Shown: positions 2,179-64,000 of the stretch, piece after piece | Numbering within the stretch: the first letter of the stretch is position 1 | Layout of the letters: every line of letters begins with the position of its first letter | DNA from: Orobanche coerulescens | Lineage: Eukaryota > Streptophyta > Magnoliopsida > Lamiales > Orobanchaceae | Direction of reading: 5' to 3' | NCBI GenBank assembly: GCA_033398695.1 | Contig: JAWKAU010000213.1 | Location: forward strand, 1 to 64,000 | DNA length: 64,000 nucleotides | Made by a program: the position numbers and the translations under genes | The notes under the pieces: generated by a model | What the model was told of the DNA's origin: nothing | Databases searched by the model: none | Seen by the model: the letters and a program-made list of their open reading frames with translations, nothing else

Positions 2179-4549
2179 TGTAACACCCCGAGATATTCGG
2201 AATAATTACAACGCCGTAAACCCTTTTGGTAAGGATTTACAAGGCTAAATAAAAGAAATGCAAATATAATTCAACCTTACAACTGAAATTCAAAATACAG
2301 AACTGGTTCAACTGATCCGAAGAGTTTACTTATACAACCATATCGAAAATGACATTATTAAAACACACGTACTCGAGTACTAAAGTGAACCAAAAAGGCA
2401 AATCACAATAACAATAGACATCAACCACATCACTGAGCTATTTCATCGTCCTGTCGGTACTGTGGTTGCTTCCCCGCTCCTCGGCTACCTGAACATCAAA
2501 ACAATGTCCACCCCCGAAGGGTTAGCAAAATAATGCTAGTACAAGTATCATAATACATAAATCATCAGTGCATCAGAAAACATGCAAACGGACTTCCGTC
2601 ATCGGAATCTAACGATGTGAATCCTCACGATTCCATCAACACAATACAGGGTAATCCAGCGATCCAGCGCCCTTGGTATAGATCCCCATGATGATCCCGT
2701 CGGACCAACACATGGTGGAAAACCCATCCAGCGATCCAGCTTCTCAAAGATAGATCCCCATGATGATCCCGTCGACTAACGCATGGTGGACATTCGATCC
2801 AGCCTCAAAGATAGATCCTCATGACCCCCTCAGATCATTTATATCATAAACCAATCAATTATGCATACATATATGCATTTCAATTTGTTCATCAATACGA
2901 ACAATTAACAACGAATACCACGAGAAATTAAAGAAATAAATCTCATATTCGACAACATGAACAAAACCATATGCATGATCAAAGTTCCAATATAAATCAA
3001 ACTCAACATATGATACTTACCTCAAAAATGGCAAGAATGGAAATACTCCAACAAATGACACGCGTCCGTATATCACCGCCCCTCGATCGTCCCCTATGCA
3101 AGGCTCGGACATAAGAGAAAAAAAATAAAGAATTCCTCACACGTCGTATGAATGTCTAACAATCCGGTTTACGGCCGCAAGTTCTAAAAATGAATTCTGC
3201 ATGAACGACTTAGCGTGCGCTACATACTCTACGTAACGTGCGCTAGGCTTCGCTCGCTAACGCATTTAATTGACCAAGTTTAGCGACGCTTAGCCGTATC
3301 GACAGCCCTCTCTCAATACCGATCGCTTCGCTCGATGACGTAACGTACGTTACGTCCCCAACGTAGCGTACGTTACTCATTCCCGATAGCTCACGTTAAT
3401 ATATCATTTTAGCGTGCGCTAACCGTGCATGGCAGTCACTACTGGGTAAAAACTGGATAAAAACTCATGAATCTTCAGTGATAATACATGTCATCTCCGT
3501 GCATATCATGCTCATACAGTTTGTGAAAGATATCTACGGATTAAACGACTACAAGATACAAGGGTACGTATTATCATCAAAATTCATCTTGATCTCGAGA
3601 AAGTATCCTAAGTTCCTTTCGTCCTACGTTCCAAAACGCATGATTCCAATGTGTAACTTGATAATCTCCACCTACTGGTCATAATCGGTTTGAAGATACA
3701 TAAATATGCTTAGGAGTCCATATACTAAAAAGGTTCAATGGATTATACGGTGAATAAGTGCCGAAACATCAAAAATATCCTTCTAACACATGATGTTCGA
3801 CTACTAACGAATTTAACTGACTAGATAATCATGATCAAAACATCTTTCATACTAGTACTTAATATTGGTTAAGAATCACCTACCTCAAAGTAGTGAAGAG
3901 CAAGGAGGAACTCGAAGCAATCCAACGCCGAAGGCTTGAACACCAATCTCCAATGATCTATAATCTTCAACTCGAGCTAGGATGCTGATATGAAGGGTTT
4001 AGGATGAAGAGAGTAATTCTCTAAGTATAAGGATTCAGATGTGGGAAGTGAAAAGACTGAAAATACGAAAAGGATGCTGTCCTATTTATTGAAAGTGGTT
4101 ATTAGCGCGCGCTAGTCCATATTCATAGCGTGCGCTAACGGCTTACTGACTTCACTGTACTCAGCGTTTAGCGTGCGCTATCCTCATATGAGTAGCGTGC
4201 GCTAACGCGTTGACTTGGCTTTTCCCGAAAGCCGTCCAGGTTCATCCCGACATAATCCGACCAAGATCCCCGGCCTGATCTCACCTACCAACACGTCTCA
4301 ATCATATTGACCATGTATAGCGTGCGCTAAGGTTCCTTCACAGCGTGCGCTATGAATCCAAGTTAGCGTACGCTACACTGAGTCGATAGCGTGCGATACA
4401 TATGCAGAATCACAATTTTAAATCATATTCATGAAATCATACACTCAACAACACCGGATTATGAAATACGGAGAATAATACTCAGATCAAAATGCAACAA
4501 TTACAATATCACAAGTTCCAAATACATAGCAGAAATCTCGGGTATTACA
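2179..4549 (-). repeat. Array A LTR1 (outermost 3' LTR in element sense)
   Basis: 2371 bp, TG...CA ends. It holds the double hairpin block (about 2504-2555), leader tandem units with a CCCGTCGG core (2650-2830), a downstream palindrome cluster (about 3200-3430), a TATA region altered to AATAAATAG (4081-4091) and an upstream palindrome cluster (about 4103-4400). It shares the LTR4 state at most diagnostic sites. The stretch 3240-3330 reads as scrambled relative to the other copies. Confidence 0.93.
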
Positions 4550-9406: not shown

Positions 9407-11794
9407 TGTAACACCCCGGGATATTCGAAATAATTACAGTGCCGTAAACCCTTTTGGTAAGGATTTACAAGGCTAAATAAAAGAAATGTAAATATAATTC
9501 AACCTTACAACTGAAATTCAAAATACAGAACTGGTTCAACTGATCCGAAGAGTTTACTTATACAACCATATCGAAAATGACATTATTAAAACACACGTAC
9601 TCGAGTACTAAAGTGAACCAAAAAGACAAATCACAATAACAGTAGACATCAACCACATCACTGAGCCATTTCATCGTCCTGTCGGTACTGTGGTTGCTTC
9701 CCCGCTCCTCGGCTACCTGAACATCAAAACAATGTCCACCCCCGAAGGGGTTAGCAAAACAATGATAGTACAAGTATCATAATACATAAATCATCAGTGC
9801 ATCAGAAAACATGCAAACAGACTTCCGTCATCGAAATCCAACGATGTGAACCCTCACGATTCCATCAACACAATACAGGGTAATCCAGCGATCCAGCGCC
9901 CTTGGTATAGATCCCCATGATGATCCCGTCGGACCAACACATGGTGGAAAACCCGTCCAGCGATCCAGCGCCCTCAGCATAGATCCCCATGATGATCCCG
10001 TCGGACCAACGCATGGTGGACATTCGATCCAGCGCTCTCAGCATAGATCCTCATGACCCCCTCGGATCATTTATATCATAAACCAATCAATTATGCATAC
10101 ATATATGCATTTCAATTTGTTCATCAATACGAACAATTAACAACGAATACCACGAGAAATTAAAGAAATAAATCTCATATTCGACAACATGAACAAAACC
10201 ATATGCATGATCAAAGTTCCAATATAAATCAAACTCAACATATGATACTTGCCTCGAAAATGGCAAGAATGGAAATACTCCAACAAATGACACGCGTCCG
10301 TATATCACCGCCCCTCGATCGTCCCCTATGCAAGGCTCGGACCTAAGAGAAAAAAAATAAAGAATTCCTCACACGTCGTACGAACGTCTAACAATCCGGT
10401 TTACGGCCGCAAGTTCTAAAAATGAATTCTGCATGAACGACTTAGCGTGCGCTACGTACTCTACGTAACGTGCGCTAGGCCTGCCTGCTAACGTACGCAA
10501 TTGACCAAGTTTAGCGTACGCTAGCTGTGTACTGACAGTCCTCTCTGAACAGCCGACTGCCCTGCCTGATGACGTAACGTATGTTACGTCCCCAACGTAG
10601 CGTACGTTACTCATTCCCGATAGCGCACGTTAATATATACATTTTAGCGTGCGCTAACCGTGCATGGCAGTCACTACTGGGTAAAAACTGGATAAAAACT
10701 CATGAATCTTCAGTGATAATACATGTCATCTCCGTGCATATCATGCTCATACACTTTGTGAAAGATTTCTACGGATTAAATGACTACAAGATACAAGGGT
10801 ACGTATTATCATCAAAATTCATCTTGATCTCGAGAAAGTATCCTAAGTTCCTTTCGTCCTACGTTCCAAAACGCATGATTCCAATGTGTAAAACATAACA
10901 ACTTGATAATCTCCACCTACTGGTCATAATCGGTTTGAAGATACATGAATATGCTTAGGAGTCCATATACTAAAAAGGTTCAATGGATTATACGATGAAT
11001 AAGTGCCGAAACGTCAAAAATATCCTTCTAACACATGATGTTCGACTACTAACGAATTTAACTGACTAGATAATCATGATCAAAACGTCCTTCATACTAG
11101 TACTTAATATTGGTGAAGAATCACCTACCTCAAAGTAGTGAAGAACAAGGAGGAACTCGAAGCAATCCAACGCCGAAGGCTTGAACACCAATCTCCAATG
11201 ATCTATAATCTTCAACTCGAGCTAGGATGCTGATATGAATGGTTTAGGATGAAGAGAGTAATTCTCTAAGTATAAGGATTCGGATGTGGGAAGTGAAAAG
11301 ACTGAAAATACGAAAAGGATGCTGTCCTATTGATAGAAAGTGGTTATTAGCGCGCGCTAGTCCATATTCATAGCGTGCGCTAATGGCTTACTGACTTCAC
11401 TGTACTCAGCGTTTAGCGTGCGCTATCCTCATATGAGTAGCGTGCGCTAACGCGTTGACTTGGCTTTTCCCGAAAGCCGTCCAAGTTCATCCCGACATAA
11501 TCCGACCAAGATCCCCGGCCTGATCTCACCTACCAACACGTCTCAATCATATTGACCACGTATAGCGTGCGCTAAGGTTCCTTCACAGTGTGCGCTATGA
11601 ATCCAAGTTAGCGTACGCTACACTGAGTCGATAGCGTGCGCTACATGCGCAGAATCACAATTTTAAATCATATTTATGAAATCATACACTCAACAACACC
11701 GGATTATGAAATACGGAGAATAATACTCAGATCAAAATGCAACAATTACAATATCACAAGTTCCAAATACATAGCAGAAATCTCGGGTATTACA
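9407..11794 (-). repeat. Array A LTR2 (inner)
   Basis: 2388 bp. It shares the LTR3 state at diagnostic sites: CCCCGGGATATTCG at its left end, GATAGTAC in the hairpin block, GAACCCTCACG, a TATA region changed to CTATCAATAG (11328-11337), and CAGTGTGCGCTA in the palindrome cluster. It has no target duplication of its own. Confidence 0.93.
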
Positions 11795-16701: not shown

Positions 16702-19084
16702 TGTAACACCCCGGGATATTCGAAATAATTACAGCGCCGTAAACCCTTTTGGTAAGGATTTACAAGGCTAAATAAAAGAAATGTAAATATAATTCAACCT
16801 TACAACTGAAATTCAAAATACAGAACTGGTTCAACTGATCCGAAGAGTTTACTTATACAACCATATCGAAAATGACATTATTAAAACACACGTACTCGAG
16901 TACTAAAGTGAACCAAAAAGACAAATCACAATAACAGTAGACATCAACCACATCACTGAGCCATTTCATCGTCCTGTCGGTACTGTGGTTGCTTCCCCGC
17001 TCCTCGGCTACCTGAACATCAAAACAATGTCCACCCCCGAAGGGGTTAGCAAAACAATGATAGTACAAGTATCATAATACATAAATCATCAGTGCATCAG
17101 AAAACATGCAAACGGACTTCCGTCATCGGAATCCAACGATGTGAACCCTCACGATTCCATCAACACAATACAGGGTAATCCAGCGATCCAGCGCCCTTGG
17201 TATAGATCCCCATGATGATCCCGTCGGACCAACACATGGTGGAAAACCCGTCCAGCGATCCAGCGCCCTCAGCATAGATCCCCATGATGATCCCGTCGGA
17301 CCAACGCATGGTGGACATTCGATCCAGCGCCCTCAGCATAGATCCTCATGACCCCCTCGGATCATTTATATCATAAACCAATCAATTATGCATACATATA
17401 TGCATTTCAATTTGTTCATCAATACGAACAATTAACAACGAATACCACGAGAAATTAAAGAAATAAATCTCATATTCGACAACATGAACAAAACCATATG
17501 CATGATCAAAGTTCCAATATAAATCAAACTCAACATATGATACTTGCCTCGAAAATGGCAAGAATGGAAATACTCCAACAAATGACACGCGTCCGTATAT
17601 CACCGCCCCTCGATCGTCCCCTATGCAAGTCTCGGACCTAAGAGAAAAAAAATAAAGAATTCCTCACACGTCGTACGAACGTCGAACAATCCGGTTTACG
17701 GCCGCAAGTTCTAAAATGAATTTCGCATGAACGACTTAGCGTGCGCTACGTACTCTACGTAACGCGTGCGCTAGGCCTCGCTAACGCACGTAATTGACCA
17801 AGTTTAGCGTCGCTAGCCGTTGTATCTTGTGATCCTCTTCAAACCGATCGCCGCTTCGATGACGTAACGTATGTTACGTCCCCAACGTAGCGTACGTTAC
17901 TCATTCCCGATAGCGCACGTTAATATATACATTTTAGCGTGCGCTAACCGTGCATGCTAGTCACTACTGGGTAAAAACTGGATAAAAACTCATGAATCTT
18001 CTGTGATAATACATGTCATCTCCGTGCATATCATGCTCATACAGTTTGTGAAAGATTTCTACGGATTAAACGACTACAAGATACAAGGGTACGTATTATC
18101 ATCAAAATTCATCTTGATCTCGAGAAAGTATCCTAAGTTCCTTTCGTCCTACGTTCCAAAACGCATGATTCCAATGTGTAAAACATAACAACTTGGTAAT
18201 CTCCACCTACTGGTCATAATCGGTTTGAAGATACATGAATATGCTTAGGAGTCCATATACTAAAAAGGTTCAATGGATTATACGATGAATAAGTGCCGAA
18301 ACGTCAAAAATATCCTTCTAACACATGATGTTCGACTACTAACAAATTTAACTGACTAGATAATCATGATCAAAACGTCCTTCATACTAGTACTTAATAT
18401 TGGTGAAGAATCACCTACCTCAAAGTAGTGAAGAACAAGGAGGAACTCGAAGCAATCCAACGCCGAAGGCTTGAACACCAATCTCCAATGATCTATAATC
18501 TTCAACTCGAGCTAGGATGCTGATATGAATGGTTTAGGATGAAGAGAGTAATTCTCTAAGTATAAGGATTCGGATGTGGGAAGTGAAAAGACTGAAAATA
18601 CGAAAAGGATGCTGTCCTATTGATAGAAAGTGGTTATTAGCGCGCGCTAGTCCATATTCATAGCGTGCGCTAACGGCTTACTGACTTCACTGTACTCAGC
18701 GTTTAGCGTGCGCTATCCTCATATGAGTAGCGTGCGCTAACGCGTTGACTTGGCTTTTCCCGAAAGCCGTCCAAGTTCATCCCGACATAATCCGACCAAG
18801 ATCCCCGGCCTGATCTCACCTACCAACACGTCTCAATCATATTGACCACGTATAGCGTGCGCTAAGGTTCCTTCACAGTGTGCGCTATGAATCCAAGTTA
18901 GCGTACGCTACACTGAGTCGATAGCGTGCGCTACATGCGCAGAATCACAATTTTAAATCATATTCATGAAATCATACACTCAACAACACCGGATTATGAA
19001 ATACGGAGAATAATACTCAGATCAAAATGCAACAATTACAATATCACAAGTTCCAAATACATAGCAGAAATCTCGGGTATTACA
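16702..19084 (-). repeat. Array A LTR3 (inner)
   Basis: 2383 bp, nearest to LTR2 by shared derived bases, including the altered TATA (CTATCAATAG at 18618-18627). Its stretch 17755-17850 reads scrambled at CTG/CAG words, as in LTR1. Confidence 0.93.
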
Positions 19085-23756: not shown

Positions 23757-24328
23757 ACTGTAAACACAAACACTCAATATCCAGGGCAAACTTTCTAAAA
23801 GGAAGTCCATCAATGTATACAAAACATGAATTAAATAAAACGGTAGTATTTGAGATTAGGAAACTTACAACCACGGTCCACACGACGATGCTGGCTCAGC
23901 AGTGATGTTACAAACGACCAATAATCAAATAATGTAAATAGACCCAACTGACCCGACTGCCAAGATATCCATGAATCTTAGCTCCGATACCATGTTCTGT
24001 AACACCCCGAGATATTCGGAATAATTACAGCGCCGTAAACCCTTTTGGTAAGGATTTACAAGGCTAAATAAAAGAAATGTAAATATAATTCAACCTTACA
24101 ACTGAAATTCAAAATACAGAACTGGTTCAACTGATCCGAAGAGTTTACTTATACAACCATATCGAAAATGACATTATTAAAACACACATACTCGAGTACT
24201 AAAGTGAACCAAAAAGACAAATCACAATAACAGTAGACATCAACCACATCACTGAGCCTTTTCATCGTCCTGTCGGTACTGTGGTTGCTTCCCCGCTCCT
24301 CGACTACCTGAACATCAAAACAATGTCC

Positions 24329-24350
24329 ACCCCCGAAGGGGTTAGCAAAA
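24329..24350 (-). other. TTTGCTAAC plus C(UUCG)G hairpin block
   Basis: In element sense CCCC-TTCG-GGGG follows TTTGCTAA, which makes a C(UUCG)G tetraloop hairpin. Copies are at about 9738-9760 and 17029-17055, and with one G lost at about 2508-2530. Confidence 0.6.
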
Positions 24351-25033
24351 CAATGCTAGTACAAGTATCATAATACATAAATCATCAGTGCATCAGAAAA
24401 CATGCAAACGGACTTCCGTCATCGGAATCCAACGATGTGAATCCTCACGATTCCATCAACACAATACAGGGTAATCCAGCGATCCAGCGCCCTTGGTATA
24501 GATCCCCATGATGATCCCGTCGGACCAACACATGGTGGAAAACCCGTCCAGCGATCCAGCGCCCTCAGCATAAATCCCCATGATGATCCCGTCGGACCAA
24601 CGCATGGTGGACATTCGATTCAGCGCCCTCAGCATAGATCCTCATGACCCCCTCGGATCATTTATATCATAAACCAATCAATTATGCATACATATATGCA
24701 TTTCAATTTGTTCATTAATACGAACAATTAACAATGAATACCACGAGAAATTAAAGAAATAAATCTCATATTCGACAACATGAACAAAACCATATGCATG
24801 ATCAAAGTTCCAATATAAATCAAATTCAACATATGATACTTGCCTCGAAAATGGCAAGAATGGAAATACTCCAACAAATGACACGCGTACGTATATCACC
24901 GCCCCTCGATCGTCCCCTATGCAAGGCTCGGACCTAAGAGAAAAAAAATAAAGAATTCCTCACACGTCGTACGAATGTCTAACAATCCGGTTTACGGCCG
25001 CAAGTTCTAAAAATGAATTTTGCATGAACGACT

Positions 25034-25242
25034 TAGCGTGCGCTACGTACTCTACGTAACGTGCGCTAGGCCTGCCTGCTAACGTACGCAATTGACCAAG
25101 TTTAGCGTACGCTAGTATCTTGTCGATCCTCTTCGAGCACCGATCGCCTGCACGATGACGTAACGTACGTTACGTCCCCAACGTAGCGTACGTTACTCAT
25201 TCCCGATAGCGCACGTTAATATATATATTTTAGCGTGCGCTA
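25034..25242 (-). promoter_or_regulatory. Downstream palindrome array of LTR4 (8 sites)
   Basis: Variants such as TAGCGTGCGCTA, TAACGTACGTTA and TAGCGCACGTTA start at 25034, 25057, 25080, 25103, 25161, 25184, 25207 and 25231. All steps are 23-24 bp except one of 58. The array lies 700-900 bp downstream of the TATA box, inside the predicted leader intron. Confidence 0.8.
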
Positions 25243-25912
25243 ACCGTGCATGCCAGTCACTACTGGGTAAAAACTGGATAAAAACTCATGAATCTTCAGT
25301 GATAATACATGTCATCTCCGTGCATATCATGCTCATACGGGTTGTGAAAGATTTCTACGGATTAAACGACTACAAGATACAAGGGTACGTATTATCATCA
25401 AAATTCATCTTGATCTCGAGAAAGTATCCTAAGTTCCTTTCGTCCTACGTTCCAAAACGCATGATTCCAATGTGTAAAACATAACAACTTGATAATCTCC
25501 ACCTACTGGTCATAATCGGTTTGAAGATACATGAATATGCTTAGGAGTCCATATACTAAAAAGGTTCAATGGATTATACGATGAATAAATGCCGAAACGT
25601 CAAAAATATCCTTCTAACACATGATGTTCGACTACTAACGAATTTAACTGACTAGATAATCATGATCAAAACGTCCTTCATACTAGTACTTAATATTGGT
25701 GAAGAATCACCTACCTCAAAGTAGTGAAGAACAAGGAGGAACTCGAAGCAATCCAACGCCGAAGGCTTGAACACCATTCTCCAATGATCTATAATCTTAA
25801 ACTCGAGCTAGGATGCTGATATGAAGGGTTTAGGATGAAGAGAGTAATTCTCTAAGTATAAGGATTCGGATGTGGGAAGTGAAAAGACTGAAAATACGAA
25901 AAGGATGCTGTC

Positions 25913-25922
25913 CTATTTATAG
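25913..25922 (-). promoter_or_regulatory. TATA box of LTR4
   Basis: The minus strand reads CTATAAATAG, 11 bp downstream of the last palindrome of the upstream array. The equivalents are AATAAATAG in LTR1 (4081-4091) and CTATCAATAG in LTR2 and LTR3. Confidence 0.75.
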
Positions 25923-25932
25923 AAAGTGGTTA

Positions 25933-26229
25933 TTAGCGCGCGCTAGTCCATATTCATAGCGTGCGCTAACGGATTACTGACTTCACTGTACTCAGCGTTT
26001 AGCGTGCGCTATCCTCATATGAGTAGCGTGCGCTAACGCGTTGACTTGGCTTTTCCCGAAAGCCGTCCAGGTTCATCCCGACATAATCCGACCAAGATCC
26101 CCGGCCTGATCTCACCTACCAACACGTCTCAATCATATTGACCACGTATAGCGTGCGCTAAGGTTCCTTCACAGCGTGCGCTATGAATCCAAGTTAGCGT
26201 ACGCTACACTGAGTTGATAGCGTGCGCTA
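25933..26229 (-). promoter_or_regulatory. Upstream palindrome array of LTR4 (TAGCGYRCGCTA, 8 sites)
   Basis: 12-bp sites start at 25933, 25957, 26000, 26024, 26149, 26172, 26195 and 26218. Steps are 24, 43, 24, 125, 23, 23 and 23 bp. The core is perfectly or nearly dyad-symmetric and contains two or more CpG. Intervening 11-bp sequences are unrelated to each other. The same array is in LTR1-3. Confidence 0.85.
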
Positions 26230-26380
26230 CATGCGCAGAATCACAATTTTAAGTCATATTCATGAAATCATACACTCAACAACACCGGATTATGAATTAC
26301 GGAGAATAATACTCAGATCAAAATGCAACAATTACAATATCACAAGTTCCAAATACATAGGAGAAATCTCGGGTATTATA

Positions 26381-26385
26381 GATTG
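26381..26385. repeat. Right target-site duplication of array A (gattg)
   Basis: Matches 2174-2178. Element C sequence continues directly with AAACTG, as in its right LTR. Confidence 0.95.
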
Positions 26386-26737
26386 AAACTGTTGTTTTGA
26401 TATTTCTACAAGTTCATTTAATATTTTCAGATGTGTTTTGGGTTTTGATATTATTGTTCAACCCTGAATTGTGTTTTCCGGACATTTGGGCCATTTTGTA
26501 ATTTATCAAAGCTTTGGGTGTATTCTTTTATATTTGTTTTCGTATGCTTGGGTGGTCAGAATCACGTATTGGTTTGGTGCTCGAATTCATATTTTGACGC
26601 TCTTCCTAAGCGCTTCATTGAATGTTGTTAATCTTCGAGTTTTGCATTGTCCGGAGCTTGTTCGGGCTGCACATTTGAGTTGCTGTGCACAAGGAATTAG
26701 CGCATGCTATTTAACTTAATAGCGCACGCTAACTTAT
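26386..26737 (+). mobile_element. Element C left LTR, second piece
   Basis: Aligns with 42898-43020 plus 43505-43730 of the right LTR. It holds two palindrome sites, at 26698 and 26720 (22 bp apart), and is cut by element B five bases after the second. The last five bases, cttat, are B's left target duplication. Confidence 0.9.
26733..26737. repeat. Left target-site duplication of element B (cttat)
   Basis: cttat recurs at 36531-36535. C's right LTR has the uninterrupted GTTGTTGAGGCAG at about 43730. Confidence 0.92.
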
Positions 26738-27431: not shown

Positions 27432-27522
27432 CCTTTCGGCCGATAGGGAGGGCCGATAGACACTACTGCCGGCATTTGTATAGGGTATCGGTTGGGCCTA
27501 TCGGCCGATAGGCTGGCCGATA
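27432..27522 (+). promoter_or_regulatory. Element B palindrome pairs upstream of its TATA box
   Basis: The perfect 16-bp palindrome CCTATCGGCCGATAGG is at 27497-27512, overlapped by a half-copy 12 bp on. Another pair centres on GGCC at 27438 and 27451. TATA follows at 27539. The right LTR repeats this with the 16-mer at 34226-34241 and TATA at 34267-34277. Confidence 0.75.
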
Positions 27523-33474: not shown

Positions 33475-36400
33475 TGTAATATCCGCAATTTTCGATTTCC
33501 GGTAATTTCTTTTTTCGGTCGAGTCCGCTTTTGACGACTCGCTCATGACCGCTTCGTCATTCCGAGAATGATTAATTCTACACTTTTGACATCCGAGTTC
33601 GTTTGGTGTCGTTCGTTGAGTTCTGTGCTTTTAGCGACTTTTCCGCACTTGAGTTCGATTCTTGCGAATCTCATCCGAATCGTTGTTTGAGTTTCCCGCA
33701 AGTCCGTTTATCTTTGTTGGACGTGTTGTGAACTTCGGTTTGGTTATTCGATCACGTATCGTGATTTTCGGGCCTTTGGGCCATTTTCGTAATTTCCCAA
33801 AGTTTGGGGTAATTACCTTCCGTTGTCGAATTTCGAGCCTTCGGGTGGTCGGAATCGTGTGTCCTACTAGCTCTTAGATTCGTCTTTGTGAGTACTTCGT
33901 AACCGTATCTTGGTTCGTATTCGAGTTCGGGTTTCGTGTCGTTTGTTGAATTAGGATTTCTAAACGGCTTTTCTAGGTATGAGTTCGTCTTTGTTAGATC
34001 ACCATTAATTTTTGGTAACTCCAAAAATTATAAATCTTTGCAATATTATAGAACATCGAGTTAGCTTTCCAATGGTTCAAACGGTGAGTCAATCGGAGTC
34101 CGGACGAGAGAGTTATGGTCGTTTTAGTGAAAGACTGTCAGCTGTCGGCACTGGCCCAGAGCCTTTCGGCCGATAGGGAGGGCCGATAGACTCTCCGCCG
34201 GCATTTGTATAGGGTATCGGTTGGGCCTATCGGCCGATAGGCCGGCCGATAGGTCCCGGCGTGTTACACTATAAATGTGTTGTTTCAACGTAAATCGTTC
34301 ATTTCCTCCCCATTCTTCAACCGTGCTCTAGAGAGAGAGACTTTAGAGGGATAGTTCCTCCATCTATCACTTACTTGTGTAAATTTCTTCATTCCTTTTC
34401 GATCGGGTGGCTCGGATTGCGGATCTAACCCGTGGTTTTGGATTTGAATGCTTGATTCATCAAGAGGTAAGAATTCCTTTAACCCTACCTTTTTGGATAA
34501 TTGGGGATTTTGGGGTTTTGTCCGATTCTTTCCGTTTTGTTGATGGATTGATGATTATTTAGATGTATTATATCATTTCCCTTGTTATTCCATGGTTGGA
34601 TCGTATCGATTCGTTGTTTGAGTTGAGTTCTTGACCGACGCCTTGAAGGTGTCCTAGAAATGTCTTAGAGGGGTTTTCGGGCGTTCTACGATTATTCTTC
34701 CTCGTATAGTCGATGATTTATTGATTGTATGATGTTAGGTCGTGTTTCTTGCGAAGAAACCGCGTTGAACCCTTTCGCTCGCCGCCGTCGTCTTCGTTTC
34801 GATAGCATTGGGCGTTTCGAAGCTTTCCGGTTGAGCCGTGTTCGTCGGAATACTTGCGTACCGATTTTGAGGCAAGTATCTTGTCCATACATTTCATGTT
34901 TCGTAGGCATAATTATTGATAAATGATTTTATGCGAAATCCAATGTTTAATGAACGTAATAAGGGATCGGTATGTTCTCGATAAATGTTGTCTTTCAACA
35001 ATAATTCTTGTAATTCGTGAATATATGTATTCTCGGAATATATGTGTTGGTTTTGTATGTTGAAAGATGCTACGATCACTTTGAGTGAGTTTAATAGACC
35101 GTAATCCTTTGCCGGGGATTACGTAAAGTTATGTGTACTTGTTCGGTAAGAACGTAATGGGTGCGATATTGGTTGTTATTCCTTCGTGAGGAGATTGTGA
35201 CACTTGGTGTTGCTTGGTATTGGTATTTACTTGTGGTTGTGTGACATTAGTTGTGAGTGTACGTCGACTAAAGTGGCCATTCTAGCGAAGTACCTAGCAT
35301 TTGTATGCACATTCTAGTATTCGAATTATGGCTTCCCGTGGCGTTGTGGATGATATGTGTATGTTCACCTAGGGACGGTCCGACGGGGGCTCTAGGGATA
35401 CGTATTGCCGTGAGTGTGCGTATCGTGAACTGTGGTTAGCCACCCAGGGATGTCCGACGGGGCTCTGCGGGGTACGGTGGCCGTGAGTCTCGTACCAGGG
35501 TTAACTTTGAAATGTTTTGTTGGAGAACTGTGATTTTTGGCGTATATTTCGTCTGATTAGGATGGCAGTCCAAATGGTAGGGTACTTAGCTGGAATGGCA
35601 CCAATAAATGTGTTGTGAATGAATTGTCTCTTGGTTGTGATAATTTGGTATGGGTACGTGAGTCATGTGGTTGCTCTGTGCATTGTAGCTCTGTGGTATG
35701 ATGAGTGAGACTGTTGTCATGGTAATGTTGGATACGGTGTAATTTCCACCGGGTATTCTTGCAGTATGTGATGTGGATGATTTGGGTCGTGGACCTGTGT
35801 TGTGATTGGAATGTTATAATTGGGTCGTGGGCCTGTTATCGCTATCGGACTTGTATTTTGAAATAAACGATTGTTGTGCTATGTCCCTAAACATTTGAAA
35901 GGCTTGAAAATTCTTAAATCCCAAACGCGTTTTCAAAAACTCCGAGATCGTAAAATGTTTTGTAAGTTGTAAAATGGTTTTATTCTTATCTTTCGTAATC
36001 TAAATTGTTTTGATCAAGTGAATTATCTCGGAAGTATATTCATGATTTCTATGTTCTTGGGGTATGATTTGTATGGCTGTCTTTGTATTTATACTTGCAC
36101 TAGCAAAACAGTGGAGTTTTGCTAACCCCAGTATTCGGGGTGGATGTCTCAGACAAGGCCCGTGTATTTGCAGTTGGCCGGGAGCAATTCACAGGATCGT
36201 TACGAAGGATGATGGAAGACGGCGATACTAATCACATGAAGACCGGTGTTGAATATTTGGTGATGTTTTGTTTTGTCTTTCCGTTGTGTTTACTTTCCCC
36301 TATGCGGGATTGTTGATTTATGTTAACCCCTGCGTGGGTATGAGTTACGAGAAAGAGTAATGTATGCTCGATGTGTATGTTGTGGTAAAAGACCAAATCG

Positions 36401-36535: not shown

Positions 36536-38077
36536 TGAGGCAGAAAGTCTCATACTTTCTGTAATGCCATACGCTAAGTCAGGATTAACGTATGCTAACT
36601 GTTATGGACAGAAGGTGTTGTCCTTCACTGAACTGCCTCTTTAGCGCACGCTATGTGTAGTATTAGCATATGCTATCGGGTTGTTGCAGATGTCCAGTTT
36701 GTTTTCAGGCTCGTTAGTACATGCTAATTATGTGTTAGCGCACGCTAATTGAGACCTGTATAAAAGGATGGACAACCGTTCTTATTCATTTTTTCTTCTA
36801 ATTTCCAACCCTACGGATGAGCGGACGTGAGAGAGGCAATCTTGAGGCGATTTGGTGCAACCTTTCATTATCTATCCCCATTTTTGGTTTGACAACAGAG
36901 ATTATACAACATCTAATACGTTTCTTCCTTCTGAATCGAAGAAAATTACTTAGAACTCTAGTTTGGGGAATTTTTGCGGGGTTTTCTTAGATTCATCCAT
37001 TGAATTCATTTTGGAGCTTGAAATCCTTGAGATTATGAAGTAATTACTCCGTATCCACGTTTCTCTTACGATTATATGAATGTTTTTTATATTACGTGGG
37101 TTTGAGAGGGTTTGGATGATTTCCAAACTCTATGTGAATATTCCTGAAGAATTGTGAATCGTAGACGGGATTTTTGGGAGTTCTTTCTTGTGAATTGAGT
37201 ATTGATTGTTGATTATCGTATTCCTTACGAATCGTTTAGGGCCGGAAGTCTGTTCTTGGACCAATTGAGCTTGAATACCTTTTCCCTTCGATTCAATATG
37301 TCTGAAAGGCAAGCATATGTTTATAATGATATGTTCTTGACTTTGAATTTGAAGTGTATGTATTGTGTGTGAGTATATGTTCACTCCGAGATGGGATGAC
37401 GGGTCCTCTGAGGGGTTGTTGCTTCTGGTGCGATCCATGAACATCTTTGGGTTAACCACTTCAGGACGGGCCGACGGATCCTCTGAGGGGTCGCTGCTTC
37501 TAGTACGATCCGCGGTTAATCACGTATATGTTTGAAATGTGAAATGATATGAGACTTTGTTATTTCGAAATACTAGTCTTGAATTTTATGAGATGATTTT
37601 ATGCTTACTTTAACGTTCAAGAAATATTACTTCATATTCGATATACTTGCACTAGCTATCCACGGCTAACCCCATACGGGAGAAGTACGTTTCATGTATT
37701 TCAGGTTCCAGACGAGCAGACGAGCAGCTACCGGGTCGGTGCGAAGATGATGGGCAAGAGTGATGTTGTGTCACTTCATTTTCTGTACTATTTATGTTCT
37801 CTATCTGAGATGTTGTATCCTTCATGAATTTTAGTACTTGAGTACTATTGGATGTTTTCTTGTTGTTTCGCTTGTATTATTTTGGGACTAATTCCCAATG
37901 ACTTTTACTCTGTCCGGCTTGATTTTTACTTTGGACATTAATTCTTATCTTCTTAAGTTTGATTATGTCTGGACTTTGTAGGTCAAAGTTCATGGTTATG
38001 TGTACGTATAGTCTTGTGGGCCCCATGAAGGGGCTCGCGGTGCTGTAATATACCCTGAATATATTGGGGGTGTTACA
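36536..38077 (+). mobile_element. Element C left LTR, third piece (promoter to LTR end)
   Basis: Palindrome sites start near 36565, 36586, 36642, 36664, 36715 and 36736. TATA TGTATAAAAGG follows at 36757, then a donor-like GAA/GTAATT at 37040. Two leader units with a GGCCGACGG core lie at 37391-37520, the GGCTAACCCC block at 37645-37683, and acceptor TATTTCAG/G at 37704. It ends GTGTTACA. Confidence 0.88.
36757..36767 (+). promoter_or_regulatory. TATA box of element C left LTR
   Basis: TGTATAAAAGG lies 10 bp after the last palindrome site (36736-36747). The right LTR has GTATATAAGG at 43961. Confidence 0.7.
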
Positions 38078-43496: not shown

Positions 43497-44033
43497 GGTG
43501 TATTCTTCTATATTTGTTTTTCGTACCCTAAGGTGGTCGGAATCATATATTGGTTTGGTACTCGAATTCGTATTTTGACGCTCTTCCTAAGCGCTTCATT
43601 GAACGTTGTCAATCTTTGAGTTTTGCGTTGTCCGGAGCTTGTTCGGGCTGACTGGGTTTCACATTTGAGTTGCTGCGCACAAGTAATTAGCGCACACTAT
43701 TTAACTTAATAGTGCACGCTAAGTTGTTGAGGCAGAAAGTCTCATACTTTCTGTAATGCCACGCTGGCGCACACCTAAGTCGGGATTAGCGTACGTTAAC
43801 TGTTATGGACAGAAGGTTCTGTCCTTTACTGAATTGCCTCTTTAGCGCATGCTATGTGTAGTATTAGCGTACGCTAACGGGTTGTTGCAGAGTGTCCAGT
43901 TCGTTTTCAGGCTAGTTAGCACACGCTAATCGTTGAGTTAGCGCATGCAAATTAAGACCTGTATATAAGGATGGACAACCGTGTTCTTATTCATTTCTTC
44001 TTCTCATTTCCAACCCTACGGATGAGCGGGCGC

Positions 44034-44038: not shown

Positions 44039-46789
44039 TGTAACACCCCCAGATTTAACCGGAAATATTACAGCGCCGTGGGCCCCGAGATGGAACCCAC
44101 AAGGCTAAAAGAAATTTTCGCAAACATTTACAAATGCCCAAGAGGCCAACGACGGTACTATCTTTAAAAATTCACAAAGACTTATAAAATCCATTTATCA
44201 AAAACCGTCGTAAAAACTCATTTGAAATCGCGAGGCCAAACAGCCGACACTCAAAAGTTTAGAAAACGACTTCCAAAGCAACCTCAGTTACCAGATACCA
44301 AAAGGTCATTTCAAAATACCCACGCAATGGAAAAGACCAACCATAAGGATACTCTAGCACGGAATACGAGAACCAATCAAAAAAACTCAATGCACACAAC
44401 ATGTCCTAGCGGTATCCTCAGGAAGCTCATCTCTTCACGACCGCTACAAGCTCGATACTCCAAGAACCTAAAAGAAATCCACGTGGTCGGCCATAATATC
44501 CACAATGATAACCGTCACATCACATTAAGAATACATACCAATGAGAATAAGAATACGACCAATGTAATCTTACCGCCATGACTTTACTTACTCAAGTAAT
44601 TCTCATCGAATAACCATTAAACTCGAACATAATATTTGTATTGTACCTCAAACAATACTCAAGATCCTCAAACTATCCTAACCAACTCACGATACGGAAA
44701 TCTACCATTTCTGACCAATACGATCCATCGAATAAAATCATCAAATCCCAAGACGATAACCAATTGTCCACCAAAGACAAGACCAAGGAAAATATGGAAC
44801 ATACCTCGAGATATGATGTGCCACGATAATCATATCAGTCTAATCCGATATCAGAACAATGCAATGCGGACAAGGTCCTAACACAAGACCTACAAATGCA
44901 TACTCATATGACAACGTCAATATGCTCAAAAACAATAACAACTATGTATACTCAATGGAAATCCCATGATCCAGCGCCCTCAGCGTAGATCCCAAGATGA
45001 TCCTACAAGATCAACACGAGGTGGATAACCAACAATATACATATGCACAACAATAACACAATCTTGGGTAATCCAACGATCAGGCGCCCTCGGCATAGAT
45101 CCCAAGATGATCCGTCGGACCAACACGAGGTGGAAAAACCCGTCCAATGATCCGGCGCCCTCGGCATAGATCCCAAGATGATCCGTCGGACCAACACGAG
45201 GTGGACATCCGATCCAGCGCCCTCGGCATAGATCGCGCGATCCCATCGGATCAACACAACATAAACAACACAATATGCATACACATATGCAAACAATATG
45301 TTCATCATCATGAACAACGCAACATGAGCGACAATATGACAAATCAATTAAGGCGACCTCATGTTCGACAACATGAATGATAATACGCATGATCAAATCA
45401 CTAACTCTAATTGAATCGATATAAGATACTTGCCCCGAGTCCTTCGGGAGAAATCTCGATGTCCAATCATCACCGACGATTATCCTCAATGCTCGGCGAT
45501 CCATACGAACAATGAACTATAGATACTCATATCCTCGTCTTTACCATAATGTAACCTTGATACTCGAACATACCAATAACTGAGATAAGCATATACATTA
45601 TGATTTATCTCCCAGAATCGAAAGAACGATATGCGATCCGAATACCCAGAGTTCACAATAATAATCATCACTATATGCATTATAAACGAAATGAAACTGA
45701 AACCATTCATTAAATATTATAACTGAGCAAGTAATAACTTGCCTCGATACCGATACGACGAAGCTGCTACCGAACACATTGCCTTTGAGCTCCTCAGCCC
45801 CGATCAAAAGCAATACAATGGACATACTCGAACGCGACCGCAATATCCGGTTATAATCACCGATCAACAATCTCAACCTATCGAAGAAATCAAATAACAC
45901 ATATCCGATAACAATCAACAACTGACAAACTAACCAATCGAACTCAACGGTTCAACACAACCTCGAATAAACACAGTCAGAACCAACCAAGTCAAACCAT
46001 CACGAATTCCTAATCAAAACACAAAAATACTGCACTGCCTGCCTACTTAGCGCACGTTAAACGCATAACGTAGCGTGCGCTAAGTTGTCCCGTTAGCGTG
46101 CGCTAGCCAGTAAGCTTAGCGTGCGCTAATGCTGTACAGTGGCATGCAATCCAAGCATCGACTAACATCTTGCAACTACGAATCCGAATGAAGGGAGATA
46201 TGAATCTCCATATCTCTTGAAGATAAACAACACCATAACTATCACAAGGATCATATCATTGTCCATATATCAATAATAACACCAACAATCAAACCGACTC
46301 GATAACAAGGATCATATCATATTCAATCCGGAATTCAACCTCGTATCATGATTTAACTCCTCTAAATCGATCAATATAATTAACAAGATTCAGAAATCCA
46401 TCTTAGATCGGGTTAAACGAATCAACATCCTTATAGTATGAAGAATCTTAACTAACATCCGAGACTCTTATCAAAATTCCATTGAATCCCATATAACATC
46501 ATCATATGATTATCCAACATGCTCCTTACATGAAATCATCCAAGAAAACGAACTATCATCAAGAGGATACGAAAATTACGGATTGGATGGACCAAGAATA
46601 AGAACACTAGACTCCATTCCAAGAATCATGAATAACTTGAAGAACAAGGTTTGAATCCATGCTCTCCATCTTAATCTTGTTAAAGATCATCATCTCTCAG
46701 TGTTTAGGAACTCCAAATGTTCTCCCAAGGTTGTCTCTATCGGGTGAAAGGAAAGAAATGGACGAAATGCTTCATGACACTGTTTGTCC

Positions 46790-46800
46790 CTTTATATAGA
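46790..46800 (-). promoter_or_regulatory. TATA box of element F left LTR
   Basis: The minus strand reads TCTATATAAAG about 9 bp after the nearest palindrome. The right LTR copy is at 52720-52730. Confidence 0.7.
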
Positions 46801-46809
46801 ATACCTTAC

Positions 46810-47294
46810 TAGCGTGCGCTAAACCATTATGTTTAGCGTGCGCTAGTCTTAGCGTGCGCTAACTGACTTTGTTAGCGTGCGCTATCGAAGCCCAGAGGCT
46901 ACTGTCTTGCTTCGTAAACTACCTTACGTACGTAATGCCCATGCATTAACGTCGTAAATCATCATGTCTAGCGTACGCAAGTCCTTACTCTTAGCGTGCG
47001 CTATCCGAAGTTGACTTACTACGGTGTTCACCTACCACTCGCCCCCACATTAAACAAAGCATCTTACAAGGATAAGATTCCTTGTTGGTGATATATATTT
47101 AGCGTGCGCTAAGCCTAATCTTTAGCGTGCGCTAATACTTCAGGACAACAACCATTGACTTACGAACGTGCGCGAAGCGGCCGGGTCCATACGCGATTCC
47201 TTGATCGGACTACATTAGCGTCGCTAACCTATGAACGTAGCGTGCGCTAATCACCGCGATAGCGTGCGCTATGCATGAATATCGGCGTGCGCTA
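46810..47294 (-). promoter_or_regulatory. Palindrome array upstream of element F TATA box (about 14 sites)
   Basis: Site starts: 46810, 46834, 46850, 46873, then 46924, 46947, 46969, 46992, then 47100, 47123, then 47216, 47238, 47260, 47283. Within groups the steps are 22-24 bp (one is 16). Even weak sites such as TTACGTACGTAA at 46924 keep the register. The right LTR has the series at 52740, 52764, 52787 and further sites to about 53210. Confidence 0.82.
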
Positions 47295-49975: not shown

Positions 49976-52900
49976 TGTAACACCCCAGATTTAACCGGAA
50001 ATATTACGGTAGCCGTGGGCCAGATGGAACCCACAAGGCTAAAAGAAATTTTCGCAAACATTTACAAATGCCCAAGAGGCCAACGACGGTACTATCTTTA
50101 AAAATTCACAAAGACTTATAAAATCCATTTATCAAAACCGTCGTAAAAACTCATTTGAAATCGCGAGGCCAAACAAATGACACTCAAAAGTTTAGAAAAG
50201 CGACTTCCAAAGCAACCTCGGTTACCGGATACCAAAAGGTCATTTCAAAATACTCACGCGGAAAAGACCAACCATAAGGATACTCTAGCGGCGGAATACG
50301 AGAACCAATCAAAAAAACTCAATGCACACAACATGTCCTAGCGGTATCCTCAGGAAGCTCATCTCTTCACGACCGCTACAAGCTCGATACTCCAAGAACC
50401 TAAAAAGAAATCCACGACGGTCACCATAATATCCAACAATGATAACCGTCACATCACATTAAGAATACATACCAATGAGAATAAGAATACGACCAATGTA
50501 ATCTTACCGCCATGACTTTACTTACTCAAGTAATTCTCATCGAATAACCATTAAACTCGAACATAATATTTGTATTGTACCTCAAACAATACTCAAGATC
50601 CTCAAACTATCATAACCAACTCACGATACGGAAATCTACCATTTCTGACCAATACGATCCATCGAATAAAATCATCAAATCCCAAGACGATAACCAATTG
50701 TCCACCAAAGACAAGACCAAGGAAAATATGGAACATACCTCGAGATATGATGTGCCACGATAATCATATCGGTCTAATCCGATATCAGAACAATGCAATG
50801 CGGAAAAGGTCCTAAAACTAGATCTACAAATGCATACTCATATGACAACGTCAATATGCTCAAAAACAATAACAACTATGTATACTCAATGGAAATCCCA
50901 TGATCCAGCGCCCTCAGCATAGATCCCAAGATGCTCCTACAAGATCAACACGAGGTGGAGAACCAACAATAAACCTATGCACAACAATAACACAATCTTG
51001 GGTAATCCAGCGATCAGCGCCCTCGGCATAGATCCCAAGATGATCCGTCGGACCAACACGAGGTGGAAAAACCCGTCCAATGATCCGGCGCCCTCGGCAT
51101 AGATCCCAAGATGATCGTCGACCAACACGAGTGGACATCCGATCCAGCGCCCTCAGCATAGATCGCGCGATCCCATCGGATCAACACAACATAAACAACA
51201 CAATATGCATACACATATGCAAAACAATATGTTCATCATCATGAACAACGCAACATGAGCGACAATATGACAAATCAATTAAGGCGACCTCATGTTCGAC
51301 AACATGAATGATAATACGCATGATCAAATCACTAACTCTAATTGAATCGATATAAGATACTTGCCGAGTCCTTCGGGAGAAATCTCGATGTCGATCATCA
51401 CCGACGATTATCCTCAATGCTCGGCGATCCATACGAACAATGAACTATAGATACTCATATCCTCGTCTTTACCATAATGTAACCTTGATACTCGAACATA
51501 CCAATAAGCGAGATAAGCATATACATTATGATTTATCTCCAGAATCGAAAGAGCGATATGCGATCCGAATACCCGAGTTCACAATAATAATCATCACTAT
51601 ATGCATTATAAGCGAAATGAAATCGAAACCATTCATTAAATATTATAAGCGAGCAAGTAATAACTTGCCTCGATACCGATCTGACGAAGGCGCTGCGAAC
51701 ACATTGCCTTTGTCTACGAGCTCCTCGGCCGATCAAAAGCAATACAATGGACATACTCGAAACGCGACCGCAATATCCGGTTATAATCACCGATCAACAA
51801 TCTCAACCTATCGAAGAAATCAAATAACACATATCCGATAACAATCAACAAGCGACAAACTAACCAATCGAACTCAGCGGTTCAACACAACCTCGAATAA
51901 ACACGGTCGAGAACCAACCAAGTCAAACCATCACGAATTCTAATCAAAACACAAAAATCGCACTTGCTTTGCCTACTTAGCGCACGTTAAGCGCATAACG
52001 TAGCGTGCGCTAAGTTGTCCCGTTAGCGTGCGCTAGCGGTAAGCTTAGCGTGCGCTAATCTTTGTCTGATGGCATGCAATCCAAGCATCGACTAACATCT
52101 TGCAACTACGAATCCGAATGAAGGGAGATATGAATCTCCATATCTCTTGAAGATAAACAACACCATAACTATCACAAGGATCATATCATTGTCCATATAT
52201 CAATAATAACACCAACAATCAAACCAACTCGATAACAAGGATCATATCATATTCAATCCGGAATTCAACCTCGTATCATGATTTAACTCCTCTAAATCGA
52301 TCAATATAATTAACAAGATTGAAATCCATCTTAGATCGGGTTAAGCGAATCAACATCCTTATAGTATGAAGAATCTTAACTAACATCGAGACTCTTATCA
52401 AAATTCCATTGAATCCCATATAACATCATCATATGATTATCGAACATGCTCCTTACATGAAATCATCCAAGAAAACGAACTATCATCAAGAGGATACGAA
52501 AATTACCTGGATTGGATGGACCAAGAATAAGAACACTAGACTCCATTCCAAGAATCATGAATAACTTGAAGAACAAGGTTTGAATCCATGCTCTCCATCT
52601 TAATCTTGTTAAAGATCATCATCTCTCAGTGTTTAGGAACTCCAAATGTTCTCCCAAGGTTGTCTCTATCGGGTGAAAGGAAAGAAATGGACGAAATGCT
52701 TCATGACACCTGTTTGTCCCTTTATATAGAATACCTTACTAGCGTGCGCTAAACCATTATGTTTAGCGTGCGCTAACTGACTTTGTTAGCGTGCGCTATC
52801 GAAGCCCAGAGGCTACTGTCTTGCTTCGTAAACTACCTTACGTACGTAATGCCCATGCATTAACGTACCTAAATCATCATGTCTAGCGTCGCAAGTCCTT

Positions 52901-53500
52901 ACTCTTAGCGTGCGCTATCCGAAGTTGACTTACTACGGTGTTCACCTACCACTCGCCCCCACATTCCGATGACATCTTACAAGGATAAGATTCCTTGTTG
53001 GTGATATATATTTTGCGTGCGTTTAGCCTTATCTTTAGCGTGCTCTAATACTTAAGGACAACAACCGTTGACTTACGAGCGTGCGCAGCGGTAGGGTCCA
53101 TACGAGAATCCTACGATCGGACTACATTAGCGTCGCTAACCTATTAACGTGGCGTCGCTAATCACGCACGATAGCGTGCGCTATGCATGAATATCGGCGT
53201 GCGCTAATAAGGCTATACTTAGCCATTTTCCGCAGATTCTTGTCCAAGCGTCTCGACATACCAAAAGCGAACATAAGACACAGAATCGATAATATCATCA
53301 TACGATATACCCGATATCAAAAGTACGACAACTGATACACAATATCCTCAAATGTAGCATCGACCAAATACGACAATTATACCAATACTGACATCTCAGT
53401 CCTTCATTTATTTTATCCTTACTGTACAGATTCCATGCTGTACAATATAACTCGGATAAAATAATATCAAACAACAGTAGTAGAAATTCCGGATATTACA
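49976..53500 (-). repeat. Element F right LTR (5' LTR in element sense)
   Basis: Aligned with the left LTR along its whole length. Differences cluster at CTG/CAG and at GG or CC runs (for example ACTGAGCAAG against AGCGAGCAAG). Confidence 0.9.
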
Positions 53501-54747: not shown

Positions 54748-57700
54748 TGTAACACCCCCAACTCGGTCGAAATGCCACAACGCCATAGGCCTTTCTCATA
54801 ACGATCTACCAGGATAGACACCTTACATATCAACAACACCATTGACTGTCGAGGTCGAAAGATATGATAACGAACCGAAAAGGTCACTCGACATCACAAA
54901 AGACCATCATGGCCAACAACTCCATATGAGGACTAAATTTTAATGCATAAGAAAACTAGTATCTCAATTCCATAATACAACTCACACCCATGCACTGGTG
55001 ATCAAGCGATAAAAGAAAACCCTTGACTACAATAAAGCCAAAAGAAAAGACTTTGACTCTTGTGTGATTAACATCGTTGTCCTTCATCCTCTTTCAAGCC
55101 GACCCAGTGATTTCTCCCGAGCTGCAAATCCCTGAATGCATGAAAGGCACCCCCCACCAGAACTGGGGGTTAGCAAACTGGAATTTTGCTAGTGCAAGTA
55201 CAAAATATAAAAGTTATACAAAAAATATCCACGCAAAATCAAAGCAGTCACAAAGTCAACACAAGTCACATAATCACACAATCATCACCAAAGAACATTC
55301 GCATACGGAAGGATAAAAATCATTCATACTTTCACTCCTTTCCAAGGAGAAACAAAAATGAAGAAATTCTTGGCAAGTCCCATTGAGTCAAATGAGTTGG
55401 TTCGAAATCTTTGAAAATACTTTTCAAAAACACTTTGGTAAACTAGTTTGATAGCGCCATTTATTGACTAGGGCTAGGTTAATGGAAACAATTGAAAAGT
55501 AGTTCCAAATCTCTCGGGTTCCTTCACCCTAAACGCGCTTTCTCAGTGAATTCCTACTCAAGACCATTAATGACTAACTATCCCTCGAAGATCTCATCAG
55601 AAATCCTTTGTTATTTAATCCTTGATTTTCTTACTGATACCAATATTTTGAAAAAGGTTTGAAAAGGATTAAAGAGGCACGAATTCATTCGGTATCAGGG
55701 TCTAGCTATCATATAAGTTTCCTCGACTCTGAAGCCTGCCAAGAGCCTCCCCTGAAATATCTGTGCACCGGCGTTCACTACATTGTGGCGGCCGCTCATT
55801 TGTATATGTTGCTGTGCCGACGTGTCTCTCATAAGAGCCGCCCCTTGCATCACGCATTAGGCAACACCGTGGTTCCACCAACCACATGAGCCGCTCTTTG
55901 CAGCATACGCAGTCCGGAGTCCACATCCCCCCCTCCGCAGCTTCGGATACGACGAACCACACAAGAAAATATTACCATTGACAATCCATATAAGGTTCAA
56001 TCAACCAAATACACAAGAGCAATCACGTAAATTCAAGTCAACACAGAGGCTTCACATTCTACGACAAATATTCATAGCCACATAAGAAATTACATACATG
56101 GTACTCAACAAATCAGGTAACGTTATAATCATCAAGGTCTACCATTACAATCCTTATGCCTCAGCATTAATAATAACACAAGGTCTCACCTTCACATTCA
56201 TACAACTCACATTCACCACACAATTAATGCGCGAGTATAACGTTCGTAAAAGGAAGGCAACAACAACATATACGTATATAAATATATATAACATACATAT
56301 GTTATTATAAAACAATGTATAACTTTGTATAATTATGAAATTACATAGATATAATTCTTATAACAAGGTAAGTGCCTCAAATCCAACAAGCGAGCAAAAT
56401 GACGAAATAGCTTGAATGGATATGATCACGAACACCGAATCCGACGAATCGCCACCATGCGTCCAATAACCTAATTCGGATGAAGAAGGATGGATTAAAT
56501 GGTATATTTCATAAATTGATTCTCCTAACGATCTCTACACCAAATCCCAACCCTCGAATACCCGCTTTCCCTCCGAAATAGAAGCATCAAACAATCCAAA
56601 TATGTAATTAACCTTTTTGACCACCTAAATGATGTTTTTTTGAAAAACCTTAAATCATGAAAGTTGTATATAGTTGAAAATTCTTTCCAAGAAGGTATGG
56701 TTCATCAAAAACGAACATATAACGTATCGGAATTAAATAAAATGCCCGCTGACTAAGATCTCAAACTTAGAAATGAGATCTGAAAATGTTTTAGGTTTTT
56801 GAGTATAGTTCGGAATAAAATATGAGAAAAGGTAAAGGACGAGAGTTATAGACATTCCAAATTTTGAATCAACAAGAATCGTTAGATTCTAACGTAAATT
56901 GAATTTTATAGGAATTTTTGAAGTTGTTGTATATTCCATTCAAAATAAAACAGGATACGAAGATGACATTTTTGAGCCCACTTAAACTCTGAATTTGGAA
57001 AAGTTCATGAATGAAACTTGTAGAGGACGAAAATTTATTTCTAGAAGGTTTAGAACCATCAAATTCAAAACTATAATGAATTTAATACGAATTTTACAAT
57101 ATGGCTGACTGTTGTGACACAAACCTTACGAGAATCCCCAAAACAATATATAACACGAAACGATAATTACCCCCATTCGAATATCAAAACAAAACGTGAT
57201 TCCAATATTTCAGATATAATCAATACATTCGAATTATGCTAAGTGATTCAGTAATTTTTGGATTACGGACACAAAATCGAGGAAACTCTCCAAAATTCTG
57301 AGATCTAAGGTTCTGCACAATTACCTCGAATCGAAGAAGAAAGGATGACTAGATGATGTTAATCCACTCTTAACGACTGAGTATAGTGTTAAGAGATCAA
57401 AGGTTGGTTATCTTTCAAGTAAGATCGCCCCGAATCGCCCCAAAAAGCCGTTACCCGACACGAGGAGAAGAAATAATGTGTGTTTTGTTCTAATTAGAAC
57501 AATTGTGGGTTTATATCCCGCTGGAGTTACGGCCGTAATGGTATGTGTGCTATGTCCATAAAGAGACTACTCTTACGGCCGTAAAGGCATGCGGGTTACG
57601 ACCGTAACCTACCCTCTGACAACAGGTAACGTCCTGCTATCACTTTAGTCCCAAACGGCCTCAAAATGCGACGATTCAAGAAATTCGATGAAGCTCCTAC

Positions 57701-63447: not shown

Positions 63448-63540
63448 TGTTGACTCAAAGTATTTTGATGATGATCGTATTCAAAACATTTAACAAAACC
63501 TATCCCATCGAGCTGCTATATTGAAGGAAAATCATGTTCT

Positions 63541-63988: not shown

Positions 63989-64000
63989 AACGTTCAAACT

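Follow-up and report, generated by a model that had tools for sequence, protein, structure and literature searches.

Phased, oriented 12-bp dyads upstream of the TATA boxes of nested plant LTR retrotransposons

Repeated motifs in described transposon promoters

Ty3/gypsy elements account for much of many plant genomes and, to our knowledge, few trans-acting regulators of these elements are known. Repeated host-factor sites in U3 drive LTR transcription in other retrotransposons, namely as the enhancer boxes of the Tnt1 LTR and the heat-response elements of ONSEN, which differ from the arrays reported here in their words and factors and in having fewer copies. En/Spm elements contain 12-bp subterminal motifs in many copies near the promoter, bound by TNPA, a protein that can also relieve silencing, but En/Spm is a DNA transposon and its binding protein is element-encoded.

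The closest precedent is that of the RM boxes of Ty1/copia Sireviruses. In the available text of PMC2829016, these are palindromic and CpG-bearing, form CpG islands, are present in many copies clustered upstream of the LTR TATA box, have divergent flanks and differ between elements, with no binding factor known; a CGG-CCG core is given for 12 of the 13 RMs of its Table 3, and box I of Tnt1 is also mentioned. The VANC-VANDAL targets of Arabidopsis, in the available parts of PMC5735166, consist of a short motif densely arranged in one orientation in non-coding transposon parts, and the motif differs between related families (PMC5735166, PMC10398659, the latter likewise in part).

The arrays described below belong to several LTR retrotransposon families (A to F) in a window of 64 kb, the whole stretch of DNA analysed. 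They resemble the RM boxes, as presented in the available text of PMC2829016, in their palindromic CpG-bearing boxes, upstream clustering, divergent flanks and change of box between elements. The Sirevirus threshold of at least eight clustered boxes upstream of TATA is reached in LTRs A4 (8 upstream, 16 in total) and D1 (11 upstream, 15 in total), with lower counts in D2 (7 upstream, 11 in all), C (6 and 7, at ≤2 mismatches) and F (4). The present elements are, however, Ty3/gypsy and not Ty1/copia, and the dyad of A, C and D (TAGCG-CA-CGCTA) is devoid of the CGG-CCG core, although CGGCCG does occur in those of F (TTACGGCCGTAA) and B (CTATCGGCCGATAG). A 23-bp step, a fixed TATA distance, an oriented centre and an array in R-U5 are found here and are absent from the Sirevirus description in that same text of PMC2829016. 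The initial annotation considered that the motif describes no known family: exact 12-mers and 10-mer cores were found in print only under titles unrelated to plant transposons, among the matches listed, but the general architecture has a Sirevirus counterpart in the part of PMC2829016 available.

Nested elements and their dyad arrays

Plant LTR retrotransposons nested in one another make up the window. Element A, on the minus strand, forms a complex of four LTRs and three internal regions (LTR-internal-LTR-internal-LTR-internal-LTR; 2174-26385) with a single outer target duplication, GATTG, at 2174-2178 and 26381-26385, as expected from recombination between LTRs. BLAST comparisons and flank sequences indicated that element C (plus strand) received both A and B (duplication CTTAT) in its 5' LTR and D (duplication GATAG) in its 3' LTR. 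The A2 internal region encodes gag, protease, RT and RNaseH, then integrase and SH3_Tf2-1, in the order typical of Ty3/gypsy, with a weak Chromo match (E 0.076). Its sense-strand frames of at least 90 aa correspond to gag, protease, RT, RNaseH and integrase, and none of that size was detected beyond gag-pol, which leaves a factor encoded by the element itself without support here and suggests one provided by the host or encoded elsewhere. Three antisense frames of 91-95 aa are also present inside pol. The homologues of the A2 proteins were plant retrotransposon proteins, some named Ty3/gypsy; for RT, top identity at full coverage was 76% and the best named match was from Rumex salicifolius (74%; 120 of 7946 matches listed), with many from Tanacetum among the matches listed, and the gag query yielded no match at E 1e-40. 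These elements probably belong to the Tekay/Del chromoviruses. LTR ends and some LTR segments are common to the families, indicating that their promoters are related by descent. The LTRs of A and D also have in common a 76% conserved R-U5 block (24458-24848 and 45055-45438) with an internal repeat of ~60 bp, in which no frame is open throughout in both A and D.

The word TAGCGYRCGCTA was matched 114 times at ≤2 mismatches on both strands of the whole 64-kb window, against a mean of 2.61 expected from 100 dinucleotide shuffles, with a largest shuffle count of 10. Sixty-four matches were located in 5.9 kb of U3 and 34 in 15.8 kb of R-U5, the latter all belonging to the second arrays of A and D, and the others were in an unassigned stretch at 63.5-64.0 kb (13) and in internal coding DNA (3), with none in B. 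The general form of the dyad is TWRCG-NN-CGYWA, and the generic pattern TWNCGNNCGNWA, written after the motifs had been seen, had 106 matches against 3.4 expected (30 shuffles). A strict 12-mer pair pattern was matched once in IMG/VR viral contigs (L001:12696-12730, record GC 0.72) and once in bacterial contigs (Aurantiacibacter, L002:396-429, record GC 0.61); with a single pair each, 22-23 bp apart, these are probably chance occurrences. A protein scan revealed no relative among viral contigs, and Rfam at gathering scores gave no match within the window.

LTR A4 (23998-26380, minus strand), part of the GATTG-flanked complex, contains an upstream array of eight TAGCGYRCGCTA matches at 25934-26229 (minus strand). 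All eight sites initially annotated in this LTR are present, but the start of the first is at 25934 and not at 25933, and one base of the site at 26172 is mismatched (CAGCGTGCGCTA). The last dyad ends 12 bp before the TATA box TATAAATA (25914-25921, minus strand), and the gap of 11 bp proposed between the array and CTATAAATAG was confirmed, with the dyad at 25934 and CTATAAATAG at 25913-25922 on the minus strand. A second array of eight sites (25034-25242, minus strand) lies ~680 bp downstream of TATA, in the transcribed part. The upstream and second arrays of the other A copies, also on the minus strand, are at 4103-4398 and 3211-3421 (A1), 11348-11643 and 10443-10656 (A2), and 18638-18933 and 17737-17946 (A3). 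Among the four A LTRs, TATAAATA is kept only in A4; the corresponding position is altered to AATAAATA in A1 (4083-4090) and to TATCAATA in A2 (11328-11335) and A3 (18618-18625). All four also contain TTACGGCCGCAA (24992-25003, and at 3169, 10401 and 17696), which resembles the F-type dyad and starts 42 bp from the start of the second A array.

The LTRs of D have a similar organization, on the minus strand. In D1, the upstream array (46810-47294) is followed after 11 bp by TATATAA (46792-46798) and four 12-mer sites lie downstream (46048-46128); in D2, the upstream array (52740-53206) is likewise 11 bp from TATATAA (52722-52728), with four downstream sites at 51978-52057. In both A and D, 693-703 bp separate the last upstream site from the start of the second array, which falls within the transcribed portion of the LTR. 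C lies on the plus strand; in its 5' LTR, the first pair of sites (26698-26731) is separated by the B insertion from the remaining ones (36565-36747), which form pairs 21-22 bp apart, some with three mismatches, and end 11 bp before TATAAAAG at 36759. The array of the C 3' LTR (43688-43950, plus strand) ends 11 bp before TATATAAG at 43962.

F, an LTR-like stretch from about 58122 downward that matches the beginning of the C LTR at 69.7% over 468 bp, carries a different dyad, TTACGGCCGTAA, on a scaffold like that of A, C and D. Its four sites (TTACGGTCGTAA, TTACGGCCGTAA, the decayed TTATGGACATAG, and TTACGGCCGTAA) are spaced at exactly 23 bp (57527-57607, minus strand), 11 bp from TATAAA at 57510-57515. 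E, a D-like LTR starting at 61629, has degenerate sites such as TTACGTACGCTA and TTACGTACGTTA at 61937-62294 (plus strand), partly at 23-24 bp steps. A CACTA-like terminus, CACTAGTAGAAAAAAC, is located at 62306 inside this LTR, and its far end, TACTAGTG (8 bp), was not found within the window. Without TAGCGYRCGCTA, B has CTATCGGCCGATAG and a second, singly mismatched version ahead of its TATA box, at another spacing: the dyads TTTCGGCCGATA and TATCGGCCGATA of its 3' LTR (34164-34239, plus strand) precede the TATA at 34270, and the 5' copy holds the same dyads at 27434-27510. A dense array of 13 sites in an unassigned element was also found at 63541-63988, its plus orientation being assumed. 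Just 12 bp remain between the last of these dyads and the end of the window, which is where one would expect a TATA box.

Phase, orientation and distance to the TATA box

Relative to TATA, dyads start at -24 and -47 in A4, at -23 and -47 in D1 and D2, at -23 and -44 in the C 5' LTR, at -23 and -45 in the C 3' LTR, and at -23, -46, -69 and -92 in F. The gap between dyad and TATA is thus 12 bp in A4 and 11 bp in both C LTRs, both D LTRs and F, and 30 bp in B, where the dyad is kept but the geometry is not. The position fixed relative to the core promoter that is expected of an operator array was therefore found in A4, C, D and F, and points to a function in the promoter.

A dominant step of 23-24 bp had been proposed, and the steps of LTR A4, in element order, were 23, 23, 23, 125, 24, 43 and 23. 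When single LTRs of A, C and D (A4, C3 and D1) were taken together with the 61.5-64 kb stretch containing E, 29 of 45 within-cluster steps were of 22-24 bp, against 3.39 expected from random placement (sd 1.72, maximum 11; 0 of 5000 placements reached 29). The 23-bp rhythm also persisted when copies were compared, its disappearance having been set beforehand as a reason to abandon the proposal. The step corresponds to about 2.2 helical turns and not to the two-turn register initially suggested. A pattern-free statistic, counting pairs of like palindromic 12-mers 22-24 bp apart, gave three pairs in A4, five in D1 and one each in F and E, counts reached by none of 400 shuffles. No such pair was counted in C3, the C sites being decayed, or in B, which is without the step.

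Spacers were annotated as unrelated, and their comparison agrees: over 109 spacer pairs from the 22-24 bp steps, within-LTR identity was 0.280 left-justified and 0.283 right-justified, close to the 0.264 predicted by composition, whereas motif identity was 0.86 (n=52). Tandem Repeats Finder detected no 23-bp array at 24990-26300 or 63500-64000, and tandem duplication of a 23-bp unit is disfavoured by this result on the two stretches together with the unrelated spacers. A related possibility is that the arrays are a by-product of repeated duplication of a short unit, the copies of which have simply remained. D1 offers an example at 46834-46861, where one extra dyad arose via a 16-bp duplication absent in D2, indicating that sites can be gained by slippage. 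Given the contrast between spacer (0.28) and motif (0.86) identity and the same TATA distance in A, C, D and F, we regard such an origin of the arrays as highly improbable.

The dyad had been treated as a neutral symmetric word, but its centre proved to be directional. In element sense, the centre was CA in 38, TA in 11, TG in two and CG in one of the 52 sites (A4, C3, D1 and E stretch), a count that relies on the assumed direction of the 63.5 kb array; leaving out the E stretch gave CA in 27 and TG in two. The direction holds although A and D are on the strand opposite to C and E. This orientation bears on a role at the RNA level, with transcript hairpins formed by the palindromes feeding small RNAs or serving in packaging or dimerisation. 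Folding was indeed better than in any of 200 dinucleotide shuffles for both A4 arrays, upstream (z -3.73) and downstream (z -5.03), and for part of the D1 upstream array (z -3.70), and small RNAs are drawn to the palindrome clusters of Sireviruses (Bousios et al. 2016, as cited in the part of PMC10760457 available). Shuffling destroys any palindrome, however, and such z-scores are expected from a DNA motif alone. With nearly all centres reading CA, adjacent copies would fail to pair at the two middle positions, whereas copies in mixed orientation could pair perfectly. Fixed placement relative to TATA is also left unexplained, and together these points make an RNA-level role quite improbable. 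Orientation and fixed TATA distance are better accommodated by a DNA-binding activator.

We therefore favour, with moderate confidence and on sequence grounds, the interpretation of the arrays as promoter-proximal operator sites for a putative host dimeric DNA-binding factor acting on LTR transcription. What is directly observed is the word, its phase, its presence in several families and its near-constant orientation, along with the fixed TATA distance and the lack of relation among spacers; from these we infer binding by a protein, its dimeric state, its encoding by the host and its activating effect. A sequence-specific dimeric protein, most likely host-encoded, would sit on each 12-bp dyad, with neighbouring dimers stacked at 22-24 bp intervals along almost the same face of the DNA. 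The last dimer would abut the TATA complex in the same register, and LTR transcription would depend on it. The operator array for a dimeric factor proposed initially thus gains from the word and phase amid random spacers, the TATA gap of 11-12 bp, the orientation and the swap of the dyad in F, but the element-encoded variant of that proposal found no support. As for the identity of the factor, none of the candidates known to us (BZR-type CGTGYG, NAC half-sites, FAR1/FHY3 and VOZ) seemed to fit all centre variants, and a literature search for a NAC site returned no match.

A host factor could also act in the opposite sense, recognizing the dyads and recruiting silencing to the LTRs. One common word would let the host target several families, and CpG-bearing sites would be natural targets for methylation. 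A target that harms the element should nevertheless be lost, but the families have retained the word as their spacers were replaced, and we consider a repressor or nucleation site of this kind unlikely.

Change of the dyad between families and copies

The operator interpretation can be extended to differences between families. The dyad reads TAGCG-CA-CGCTA in A, C and D and TTACG-GC-CGTAA in F; sites in E resemble TTACG-TA-CGYTA, and B has TATCG-GC-CGATA at another spacing. We tentatively suggest that Ty3/gypsy families may use one scaffold, with dyads at -23, -46 and onward, on which dyads are swapped between related families as a recognition code addressing diversifying host factors, so that each family might control its own expression and avoid or follow host silencing. 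Should the scaffold prove general, with a dyad that does change between related families, it would provide an example in which transposons rewire their regulator, amenable to direct testing and parallel to the Sirevirus palindromes and the VANC motifs. The 12-bp word with its strict phase and TATA distance is a ready bait and reporter for finding that regulator.

In every motif comparison between copies, conservation is favoured by the choice of sites for matching; counts are small, the A copies are not simple 5'/3' LTR pairs and the families are related by descent. Between A and D, with the justification kinder to the spacers, 64 of 72 motif bases were kept at six in-register sites, compared with 23 of 55 bases in the spacers. 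When the 5' and 3' LTRs of C were compared, differing bases amounted to 13/84 in motifs, 14/192 in spacers and 188/1803 elsewhere, indicating that the motif was not protected after insertion there, which fits a motif kept in the mobile lineage and decaying in dead copies. The D pair (motif 5/166, spacers 13/332, rest 63/2986) and the six pairs of A copies (motifs 1-4%, spacers 3-6%, rest 1-3%) do not clearly fit such a course. The motif changed less than the spacers in all six A pairs and in D, only C showing the reverse; compared with the rest of the LTR, its change was greater in D and in five of the six A pairs.

The CpGs within motifs were less changed than other CpGs in all six A pairs and in D (1/58 against 32/351 between D1 and D2), which may reflect the selection of matching sites or low methylation. 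This difference, although the count is biased by site choice, is in the direction expected if a protein bound dense same-direction motifs and removed DNA methylation, allowing the element to escape silencing as VANC does for VANDAL. CpG-bearing sites both upstream and downstream of TATA are in line with such an anti-silencing function, and the dense motifs in non-coding DNA, nearly all in one orientation (CA in 38 and TG in two of 52 sites), and the motif change between C, F and B resemble the VANC targets as described in the available parts of PMC5735166. VANDALs, however, encode VANC, whereas A2 is without an extra sense-strand gene among frames of at least 90 aa, and VANC targets grow as tandem repeats, whereas spacer identity here is 0.28 against 0.264 expected. 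With the fixed TATA distance indicating promoter function, anti-silencing by analogy with VANC would seem rather unlikely.

Motif and other CpGs changed about equally in C (7/24 and 57/190, respectively). LTRs A4, C3 and D1 and two copies of the B LTR gave an observed/expected CpG ratio of 1.20-1.35, and the E stretch one of 1.05.
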